Virus record (IMG/VR): IMGVR_UViG_3300037517_000619
Location: 1 to 31,183 of that record
Direction: 5' to 3' (one strand)
DNA length: 31,183 nt
DNA from: a virus
The first letter of the stretch is position 1, and the number at the start of each line of letters is the position of its first letter. Shown piece after piece: positions 23,280-26,130 of this stretch. Both the position numbers and the translations under genes were made by a program. The notes below the pieces were generated by a model, which worked only from the letters and a program-made list of their open reading frames with translations, did no database searches and was not told the DNA's origin.

Positions 23280-24596
23280 ATGCGCCACTACCTCGAACAA
23301 TCCGTGTACGACGCCGCCATAGAGCGGCTGGATTTCATCTTTGCCCACTTCACCCGCGTCTACGTCTCCTTCTCTGGTGGCAAGGACAGCGGCGTTCTCC
23401 TGAATCTCGTTTGCGACTACATACGAGAGCGGCAGCTACCGGTCAAAGTCGGCGTCCAGATCATGGACAACGAAGCCAACTACAACCACAGCGAGGAGTT
23501 CATGCACCGGATCCTCGAAGTCAATCGGGACATCCTCGACATCTATTGGTGCTGCCTGCCTATCACGCTGCCCTGCACCGTCAGCTCCTACGAGATTGAT
23601 TGGCAGTGCTGGGGTGAACAGGACCGGCACCGCTGGATCCGGCCCATGCCGCAGCAGGATTACATCGTGAACCTGCAGAACCACCCCTTTGGCGATCTGT
23701 TCATTGAAAACATGGACTACGCCACCTTTTGGGATATGTTCGCGGAGTGGTACAGCCAAGGTGAGCCCTGCGCCAACCTAATCGGCATTCGCACCGTTGA
23801 ATCGCTCAACCGTTTCCGGGCCATCCTGAATCAGGACAAGGAAACCATGCTTGGCCGCATGTGGACCAAAAAAAACACGGCGCATACCTACAACTGCTAT
23901 CCGATCTACGACTGGCGCACGGAGGACATCTGGACGGCTAACGCCAAGTTTGGATGGGATTACAACAAACTCTATGACGTGTTCTACATGGCTGGTATCC
24001 CCATCAAAAAGATGCGGGTTGCCTCGCCGTTTATGTCAGAGTCCAAATCCAGCCTCGCCATGTATCGGGTAATCGACCCGCAGATCTGGGCGAGGCTTTG
24101 CGCCAGGGTTGGCGGTGCCAACTTTATGGCCACCTATGGTAAGCAGCTTGATTACAAATCCTTCAGGCTGCCGCCCGGCCACACTTGGAAATCCTTTGTG
24201 AAGTTCCTGCTGGCCACATTGCCGGATCAATCGAGCGCAAATTTTAAGCAGCGCTTCATCCAATCAATCCGCTACTGGGGCAGGGTGGGGCGCGGTCTTC
24301 CTGAGGCCATCATTGAAGCTCTTGGCCGTATCGGCATCCGCTTCTACATCAATGGCACCACTCGCCACGGTGGCAACAACCTCCGCCGTGTCGTGATCAA
24401 GGTGCCACCTGATCATCTCGATGATCTCCCGTGCCACAACAGCATGGTCACATCGTGGAAGCGCTTCGCCATCACGGTTCTAAAGAACGACCACACCTGC
24501 AAATACTTGGGTTTGGCGCCAACGCAAGAGCAGCAGCGCCGCCAAAAGTCAATCCAACGCAAGTACAGCCAAGTCCTTAACCGCTCAGCCAAATGA
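23280..24596 (+). CDS. PAPS-reductase-like ATP pyrophosphatase, IbrA/DUF3440 type
   Basis: The 438-residue protein has the PP-loop SFSGGKDSG (residues 31-39) of the adenine-nucleotide alpha hydrolase family, then QIMDNEANYNH near 60 and a long cysteine-containing middle (YWCCLPITLPC). PTRIESL-like segments appear as GIRTVESLNRF, followed by NCYPIYDWRTEDIW, a hallmark of the IbrA-like DUF3440 group. PAPS reductases reduce activated sulfate; IbrA-like proteins lack proof of that reaction and are known in Escherichia coli as partners of IbrB in controlling eib genes. Start ATG 23280 lies 44 bases from the divergent possible recE start. It overlaps the next gene by ATGA, so the two are coupled. 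Confidence 0.85.
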   Translation: MRHYLEQSVYDAAIERLDFIFAHFTRVYVSFSGGKDSGVLLNLVCDYIRERQLPVKVGVQIMDNEANYNHSEEFMHRILEVNRDILDIYWCCLPITLPCTVSSYEIDWQCWGEQDRHRWIRPMPQQDYIVNLQNHPFGDLFIENMDYATFWDMFAEWYSQGEPCANLIGIRTVESLNRFRAILNQDKETMLGRMWTKKNTAHTYNCYPIYDWRTEDIWTANAKFGWDYNKLYDVFYMAGIPIKKMRVASPFMSESKSSLAMYRVIDPQIWARLCARVGGANFMATYGKQLDYKSFRLPPGHTWKSFVKFLLATLPDQSSANFKQRFIQSIRYWGRVGRGLPEAIIEALGRIGIRFYINGTTRHGGNNLRRVVIKVPPDHLDDLPCHNSMVTSWKRFAITVLKNDHTCKYLGLAPTQEQQRRQKSIQRKYSQVLNRSAK

Positions 24597-25534
24597 AGAT
24601 CCTCAACGCCGCCCAACTCCCCTCCGACCGCGTTGTGCAATGCCCACGCGGTGGTTTCACCAGCCATCGCTTGCTCACGGAAGACGACGGCATGGGATAC
24701 AGCATGACAAAAACCATCGTGCATCCTGGCAAGCCGCACCGCTGGCACTATCAGCACCACCTTGAAACGTGCTACTGCGTCAGCGGCAAAGGTCTGCTGA
24801 TCAACGAGGCAACCCAAGAGATCCACGCCATCGCGCCTGATGTGACCTATGTGCTCGACAAGCACGATGCTCACACGTTTGAAGCTCTGGAGCCCACCAC
24901 GCTGATCTGTGTATTTAACCCACCCCTCAAAGGCGATGAACTCCATGACGCGAACGACTCTTACCCTTGGCGATCCCCGGTCTACTCTGTCCGCAGTATT
25001 CCTATCGAGAAAGTTACCGCCAACGATTACAACCCCAATTCTGTGGCGCCGCCTGAAATGGCACTACTCGAAACATCAATTTGGGAAGATGGCTACACAC
25101 AGCCTGTCGTTGTCGTGCATGATGCCGAACGCGACCTATATGTGGTCGTTGACGGTTTCCACCGTTATCTAACCCTGAAGAACAGCCAGCGTATCCGCGA
25201 ACGCGAAGGCGGCAGACTGCCGGTGGTTGTGCTGCGCAAGGAGCTACACGACCGGATGGCTTCCACCATCCGTCACAACCGCGCCCGTGGTTCGCACAAC
25301 ATCGAACTGATGAGCGTGATCGTTGCCGAGCTGATCGAAATGGGTAAAGGCGACGCATGGATCTGCAAGCACATCGGCATGAGCCCTGATGAGCTGTTGC
25401 GCCTTAAGCAAGTCACCGGGTTGGCGTCGCTGTTCCTTGGCAAAGATTTCAGCAAGGCATGGGACGTGGATCAGATCGACAACATCACGGAGGATCTCGA
25501 ACGTGAAGCTCAAGAGGATCTGGTTGCCCATTGA
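24593..25534 (+). CDS. Fusion of ectoine-synthase-like cupin and ParB/IbrB-like domain
   Basis: Residues 1-125 read as an EctC-type cupin: HYQHHLETCYCVSGKG, YVLDKHDAHTFEA and CVFNPPLKGDELHD-x-x-DSYP follow the family order. From what I remember of the Paenibacillus lautus enzyme, its iron ligands Glu57, Tyr85 and His93 correspond to E58, Y86 and H94 here, with the same spacing. Residues 130-313 form a ParB/sulfiredoxin-type domain as in IbrB: SIPIEKVTANDYNPNSV, ISIWEDGYTQPVVV-like strand, YVVVDGFHRYLTL, then a STIRHNRARGSH segment and helical tail. EctC closes a ring on a diamino acid; ParB-like proteins bind nucleotides, some cut DNA. The gene is coupled to the PAPS-reductase-like gene by ATGA. 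What the fusion does is not known to me. Confidence 0.82.
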   Translation: MKILNAAQLPSDRVVQCPRGGFTSHRLLTEDDGMGYSMTKTIVHPGKPHRWHYQHHLETCYCVSGKGLLINEATQEIHAIAPDVTYVLDKHDAHTFEALEPTTLICVFNPPLKGDELHDANDSYPWRSPVYSVRSIPIEKVTANDYNPNSVAPPEMALLETSIWEDGYTQPVVVVHDAERDLYVVVDGFHRYLTLKNSQRIREREGGRLPVVVLRKELHDRMASTIRHNRARGSHNIELMSVIVAELIEMGKGDAWICKHIGMSPDELLRLKQVTGLASLFLGKDFSKAWDVDQIDNITEDLEREAQEDLVAH

Positions 25535-25928
25535 CGCCTGGGAGGAGATCCACTTCAACATGTGGGGCGATGTGCCAAATCGACGCATTGCCCTGTATCG
25601 CGCACAGATCTTCACCGGCAATCACCGGCTCTACGGGCGCTACATGCAGCGGGTCACCGTGGAATGGCCCAACAGCTGCATCAATGCACTAACCGACTAC
25701 AACCTCAACCGCAAAGCATGGATCGGCCACGCTGCCTGCGCCCTTGCGTTGCGATGCCCTGAGGACATTACCCGCCAAGCATGGGGACTTCTGACTGATG
25801 AGCAACGGACATTGGCGAACCGACAAGCGGATCGAGCCATTCGCGCCTGGGAGATGCGCTACCGCGAGAGTCTCGGAATACGTGCAGACGTGGAAAGCCC
25901 GCTGTTATTCGCACGAGATCCCCGATGA
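25503..25928 (+). CDS. Small protein of the IbrA/ParB cassette, unknown function
   Basis: From GTG 25503, 32 bases inside the fusion gene, the frame gives 141 residues. The frame is open further upstream but only as a shadow of the fusion gene. The protein has an EEIHFNMWGDVPNRR start, a VTVEWPNSCINALTDYNLN block and a RKAWIGHAACALALRCPEDITRQAWG block ending in ANRQADRAIRAWE. I associate proteins with this pattern with IbrA-like PAPS-reductase genes in other phages and bacteria, but only from memory. It is helical, with no known catalytic site. Its last 131 bases are shared with the next gene in another frame. Confidence 0.72.
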   Translation: MKLKRIWLPIDAWEEIHFNMWGDVPNRRIALYRAQIFTGNHRLYGRYMQRVTVEWPNSCINALTDYNLNRKAWIGHAACALALRCPEDITRQAWGLLTDEQRTLANRQADRAIRAWEMRYRESLGIRADVESPLLFARDPR

Positions 25929-26130
25929 AGTGCCAGTGAAGGTTGCAGCGTCAGGCCGGGCGCCATCGTGGCGTGCAGTAGCCGTGGCATTGCTGCAGAA
26001 CGATCTGCACCTCTATCAACTCGGGTATGCACGACCTGCATACGACCAGCAACGCCGCGCTGTAACCATGGCTCAAATCGCCATGCATGGTGCTCCCGCA
26101 GATGGCACGCAGTTGGAGTTGCCGCTGTGA
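25798..26130 (+). CDS. Small DUF-type protein of the same cassette
   Basis: The 110-residue product from ATG 25798 contains VSEYVQTWKARCYSHEIPDEVP and GRAPSWRAVAVALLQNDLHLYQLGYARP, a compact helical pattern often found beside IbrA-like PAPS-reductase genes, again from memory. The protein proper may begin nearer to residue 24, with the first part existing because of the long overlap with the gene before. It ends with a polar tail (GTQLELPL). The stop overlaps the helicase start by four bases (GTGA). Its steady company with the preceding genes suggests a role in the same pathway, possibly as an adaptor. Confidence 0.7.
   Translation: MSNGHWRTDKRIEPFAPGRCATARVSEYVQTWKARCYSHEIPDEVPVKVAASGRAPSWRAVAVALLQNDLHLYQLGYARPAYDQQRRAVTMAQIAMHGAPADGTQLELPL

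Follow-up and report, generated by a model that had tools for sequence, protein, structure and literature searches.

The open reading frame at positions 24593-25534 (+ strand) of the window, by which we mean the whole 31,183-nucleotide stretch of viral DNA that was analyzed, encodes an ectoine synthase (EctC)-type cupin fused to a ParB/Srx-like domain of the IbrB type. The explanation we prefer, although with rather less than even confidence, is that this protein serves as IbrB in a phage IbrA-IbrB cassette and has acquired its cupin as an iron-dependent enzyme with a new substrate, perhaps a nucleic acid or a nucleotide. As judged from alignments and a predicted structure, the cupin is intact, is under purifying selection, and retains the iron ligands and most of the ligand contacts of EctC. 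The architecture itself is already annotated. The sequence-only reading of this DNA held that EctC has no known link to ParB proteins, but GenBank names Mycobacterium phage Gaia gp104 'ectoine synthase/ParB multidomain protein' and gives the same name to both the cupin and the ParB genes of Pseudoalteromonas phage XCL1123. Full-text literature searches found no paper analyzing the EctC-ParB architecture.

Domain Composition of the Fusion Protein

The fusion frame has an ATG start and no internal stop and encodes 313 amino acids. Residues 1-126 (24593..24970, + strand) were assigned to the EctC-type cupin from Pfam, NCBIfam, and PDB matches and from an AlphaFold model, and residues 127-313 (24971..25534, + strand, stop codon included) to an IbrB-type ParB/Srx-like domain with C-terminal helices. 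An EctC cupin followed by a ParB/IbrB-like domain had been proposed in the sequence-only reading, and the profile comparison that it suggested was significant: residues 11-126 matched the Pfam family Ectoine_synth (PF06339) at 4.7e-37 with 127.5 bits against a cut-off of 27, and residues 74-307 matched the phage ParB-like family PHROG_2159 at 3.8e-78. The protein also scored 136 bits against the NCBIfam ectoine synthase model PRK13290 (cut-off 128), and the best PDB sequence match of the cupin was EctC of Sphingopyxis alaskensis (5.3e-25). In the AlphaFold model the cupin part has pLDDT values mostly of 80-96 and superposes on EctC, the top fold match being 5bxx (TM 0.93 over the target, 1.4 Å).

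The ParB half is predicted with moderate confidence (pLDDT about 60-85), and its fold matches were masked by EctC. It resembles Noc and ParB proteins, with a weaker likeness to the free serine kinases SbnI and SerK. Residues 133-196 gave a weak match to ParB_N (1e-4, 22.7 bits, below the cut-off of 26.3), and the TIGR00180 score of 18.6 was likewise below its cut-off of 58.45; on these profiles the protein would not be classed as a partition-type ParB. Instead, it carries the DGFHR and RHNRARG motifs kept in IbrB proteins. In DGFHR (residues 187-191, 25151..25165, + strand), the D, G, H, and R are invariant and the F nearly so among 15 aligned IbrB proteins.

Cassette Partners and Distribution

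Directly upstream of the fusion lies a gene for a 438-residue IbrA protein (23280..24596, + strand), which combines a PP-loop/PAPS-reductase-like domain with DUF3440 (DUF3440 1.3e-53, PAPS_reduct 8.6e-9, phrog_2302 3.2e-108) and whose stop overlaps the fusion start codon in the sequence ATGA. Its PP-loop motif SGGKDS (residues 32-37, 23373..23390, + strand) is invariant or nearly so in 18 IbrA proteins, and its nearest PDB profile matches are FAD synthase, PAPS reductase, and CysD/sulfate adenylyltransferase. Overlapping the 3' end of the fusion is the fourth cassette gene (25503..25928, + strand, likely GTG start), which encodes a small all-helical protein of 141 residues. The motif pattern WEE...NALTD...KAWIGHAACALA...PED is found in this protein and in those of contigs L091 (5907-6317), L146 (5004-5375), and L147 (5001-5366). 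Its AlphaFold model has a mean pLDDT of 90.8, and searches of Pfam, PHROG, and PDB folds gave no match. Pseudomonas phage Amjad_SA and Microcystis phage Mwe-JY13 also have the small protein, encoded between ParB and IbrA (order ParB, small protein, IbrA), and no cupin was detected in their cassettes. Because it occurs in phages without the cupin, the small protein belongs to this branch of IbrAB rather than to the cupin.

The cassette is surrounded by recombination and replication genes, namely RecT, a RecE-type exonuclease, helicase, and primase in the window and exonuclease VIII, SSB, and RuvC-type genes in XCL1123. The frame that follows the cassette (window 25798-26130) has a weak likeness to the C-terminal end of the IbrA DUF3440 (Pfam 0.052, phrog_15645 0.0014) and looks like a detached IbrA tail turned into a separate gene.

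Viral contigs were scanned with the fusion and with the cupin alone, and the best 80 loci from each scan were pooled to give 79 distinct contigs; since both scans list best matches first, the sample leans toward close relatives of the window. IbrA and ParB are each present in 78 of the 79 contigs listed, and 75 have the small gene. Missing partners are mostly explained by contig ends, but L088, the one bacterial MAG contig of the 79, has no detectable small gene. The cupin is accompanied by IbrA and ParB in every listed contig that has room for them, bar one, L141, that looks rearranged. In a set of 50,697 phage records, the only isolate phages with a phage-type cupin were Gaia, Nebkiss, and XCL1123, and IbrA was present in 215 records. 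A count of carriers, proposed earlier as a check, therefore gives at least 79 contigs and, among isolates, three phages. Phages, prophages, and plasmids widely carry genes of the IbrA/IbrB type. Most phages with IbrA/IbrB have no cupin, which makes the cupin dispensable for the core function of these proteins and counts against our preferred explanation.

Gaia (gp103-gp104; KJ567043, AID58922, AID58923) and Nebkiss (gp103-gp104) likewise encode IbrA, an EctC-ParB fusion, and the small fourth protein. Their fusion is 68% identical to that of the window over residues 1-291. They differ from the window in having a cupin of another lineage and an extra gene after the fusion and ahead of the fourth gene, GIY-YIG-like in the Nebkiss annotation. 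GIY-YIG-type endonuclease-like genes are inserted at two different sites within the cassettes: in contig L074 (2532-2852) such a gene separates IbrA from the fusion, and in Gaia and Nebkiss (gp105) it separates the fusion from the small gene. This placement resembles the behavior of homing elements in conserved targets.

XCL1123 (MN313256, QGJ84328-QGJ84330) has the components of the window in the same order, except that cupin and ParB are two genes. In this phage and in contigs L091 and L092, the cupin gene has its own stop ahead of a separate ParB start. As the two genes are separate yet adjacent in one subclade, the cupin is a subunit of the system, with a link to ParB that is functional beyond the covalent one. 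The phage cupins form a single clade (support 95/100) apart from 41 bacterial EctCs, and the three split members group together inside it; fusion first and splitting later is thus the simplest reading of this midpoint-rooted tree. The IbrA proteins of divergent cupin cassettes are 66-80% identical to the window IbrA, and the best other IbrA is about 40% identical. Among 299 genomes from the phylum of genome G001, no EctC match lay in a fusion-sized frame (largest frame 223), and the cupin query matched no M. abscessus prophage. One apparent standalone phage EctC (L144, MT835761.1, named as a bacteriophage) was rejected as an ordinary ectC; an aminotransferase-like frame lies just upstream of it, and the record therefore looks like bacterial DNA.

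In E. coli (ybdN/ybdM) and Streptococcus phage CHPC1148, as in the window, a DUF3440 protein adjoins a ParB-type protein. The CHPC1148 proteins are 63.9% (IbrB part) and 39.4% (IbrA) identical to those of the window. Neither system has a cupin; enteric and some other forms carry a short N-terminal extension instead. Alignments that begin at residue 65 or 86 had raised the idea of a remnant cupin in enteric IbrB, which was discarded as the extension is short and has no cupin motifs. The E. coli homologues ybdNM have been described as a CitR-repressed operon. In more distant actinophage versions (L145 3386-7585; L195 3284-6114), the gene for a PAPS-reductase-like protein is accompanied by two or three ParB-like genes and by a methyltransferase gene, close to that for the terminase. 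The position of actinophage IbrA-ParB beside terminase, sometimes with a methyltransferase, would fit a role on phage DNA but is no proof of one.

The Cupin Active Site

The iron ligands of P. lautus EctC are Glu-57, Tyr-84, and His-92 (PMC6344544). Their predicted counterparts in the fusion are E58 (24764..24766), Y86 (24848..24850), and H94 (24872..24874, all + strand), each invariant in 18 phage cupins. The sequence-only reading had picked out the same three residues and is upheld on that point; it had also stressed their unchanged spacing, but this is not a fixed feature of EctC, for the spacing varies among true EctCs and that of P. lautus is one residue shorter between the first two ligands. 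S24, R26, T39, T41, Y53, and C106 are also invariant in the 18 phage cupins, and published active-site positions are enriched among the invariant ones (9/11 versus 25/124 overall, p 6e-6). The pocket retains the residues that in EctC contact the amine and the amide of an amino acid-like substrate.

The phage cupins thus share with EctC (5bxx, 5onm; PF06339) the fold, the iron ligands, and most of the ligand contacts but differ in four respects: they have lost Trp-21, have no ectAB in the eight virus records searched, are fused or linked to ParB, and form a clade of their own. Trp-21 has been reported to be fully conserved in 437 EctCs from ect clusters, and the W21A variant of P. lautus EctC keeps 9.7% activity (PMC6344544). 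In our bacterial set, 33 of the 41 EctCs have Trp at this position. The window protein has F22 (24656..24658, + strand) in place of this essential residue; Phe occupies the position in 15 of the 18 phage cupins and the residue is absent in the remaining 3. The loss could also mean that catalysis has been lost, which counts against our preferred explanation. W51, two residues before Y53, is conserved in the fused phage proteins (15/18 phage cupins, 0/41 bacterial EctCs), and may fill the pocket in place of Trp-21. The substrate contact Asn-38 of EctC is replaced by Thr in all 18 phage cupins; this position is variable among EctCs too, given that 30 of the 41 bacterial sequences have His.

Solitary bacterial EctC-like proteins (e.g. 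L184-L189) resemble the phage cupins in having Cys at position 60 and no Trp at the canonical position. However, they carry, two residues upstream, a Trp that is missing in the phage cupins, mostly have Cys where the phage cupins have Thr at the Asn-38 position, and fall outside the phage clade. The barrel cysteine C60 was considered as a phage-specific sign of sulfur chemistry and was set aside, as it is common to the solitary bacterial EctCs.

Comparison with 15 relatives gave dN/dS values of 0.03-0.2 for the cupin. Those of the ParB half are mostly lower, making the cupin the faster-evolving part, and this too counts against our preferred explanation.

Possible Functions of the Cassette

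The combination of a PP-loop-like IbrA, a half resembling Noc, ParB, SbnI, and SerK, and a pocket with amine and amide contacts suggests an ATP-using system for an amino acid-like group, perhaps on nucleic acids or nucleotides. In the mechanism that we propose, the cupin would be an active iron enzyme with EctC-like chemistry, probably performing a water-eliminating ring closure between an amine and an amide, or the reverse, on an amino acid-like group other than N-gamma-acetyl-diaminobutyrate. Its partners might contribute as follows: IbrA could use its PP-loop for ATP-driven activation of the substrate, the ParB/Srx-like domain could bind a nucleotide or nucleic acid and present the substrate, and the product might be a modified nucleotide or nucleic acid for the phage replication module. 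Two further points count against this explanation: we know of no reaction or substrate for any IbrA/IbrB pair, and no modification of Gaia or XCL1123 virion DNA is documented in the literature found. The literature searches likewise found no paper assigning a reaction to IbrA/IbrB-type genes. The sequence-only interpretation, in which the cupin would make or remove a group on a substrate handled by the ParB-like part, perhaps a nucleotide or DNA end, survives in part; it overlooked that an upstream IbrA is obligatory, that a fourth gene is conserved, that Trp-21 has been lost, and that some phages encode cupin and ParB separately.

The strongest competitor, for which we see a smaller but real chance, is that the cupin is a non-catalytic sensor that binds a small amino acid-like metabolite and gates NTP-dependent DNA binding by the ParB part. 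Cupins are frequent as sensing domains on DNA-binding proteins, and two cupin-type DNA-binding regulators (6b8w, 1y9q) are among the fold matches of the window protein. Phage annotators call IbrA/IbrB co-activators of prophage gene expression, and the Trp needed in EctC catalysis is the one that the phage cupins have lost. Nevertheless, the invariant iron triad and the amine- and amide-handling residues exceed the needs of ligand binding, and a cupin that is a separate protein in some phages would not be directly coupled to ParB.

Within enzymatic readings, a more specific proposal makes the cupin an iron-dependent cyclodehydratase of EctC origin. With IbrA and IbrB as partners, it would install a cyclic group, for example of the amidine type, on a nucleotide or on the DNA or RNA of the phage; in this precise form we consider the proposal unlikely. 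Only slightly more doubtful is the idea that the cassette is a module for counter-defense or superinfection exclusion and that its cupin protects or disguises phage DNA or alters a host signal. ParB/Srx proteins are known in Dnd and Dpd systems (PMC12839542), and PADLOC found IbrA weakly similar to the phosphorothioation enzyme DndC (4.9e-7). However, IbrA is not a DndC orthologue (20.2 bits against an NCBIfam cut-off of 290.4), and PADLOC matched neither the fusion nor the small protein.

An osmoprotective auxiliary metabolic gene, that is, a real ectoine synthase acting on N-gamma-ADABA made by the host, is improbable. The profile scores in Pfam and NCBIfam do place the cupin in the family, solitary ectC genes exist in bacteria, one of which, from P. 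syringae, is able to complement a mutant in ectC (PMC5924519), and a virome paper of 2026 interprets a viral ectoine synthase as osmoprotective (PMC13079714). Against this stand the loss of Trp-21 from all phage cupins, their separate clade, and their fixed linkage to IbrA and ParB. In addition, eight virus records held no match to the EctA class (GNAT acetyltransferase) or the EctB class (class III aminotransferase), which makes an ectoine-producing auxiliary gene unlikely, and we rejected that assignment. The earlier view that the cupin acts with the ParB-like part and not in osmoprotection is supported. The rarity of the fusion in isolates (3 phages in 50,697 records) might suggest a remnant without function or an error of assembly. 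Both readings are refuted by recurrence of the arrangement in at least 79 distinct contigs and in three isolates (fused in Gaia and Nebkiss, as two genes in XCL1123), by purifying selection, and by the invariant active site.

For the IbrA/IbrB family, an added enzyme domain whose chemistry is known and whose structure has been solved provides a handle on the target, which is most likely amino acid-like, with an amine and an amide. Matches to 'ectoine synthase' in viral metagenomes need not imply osmoprotection, an assumption made in at least one recent study (PMC13079714), and surveys of EctC should set the phage cupin clade apart. If the cyclodehydratase proposal is true, the ectoine synthase family would for the first time have a role unrelated to osmolytes, and phages would have a modification pathway of a new kind.
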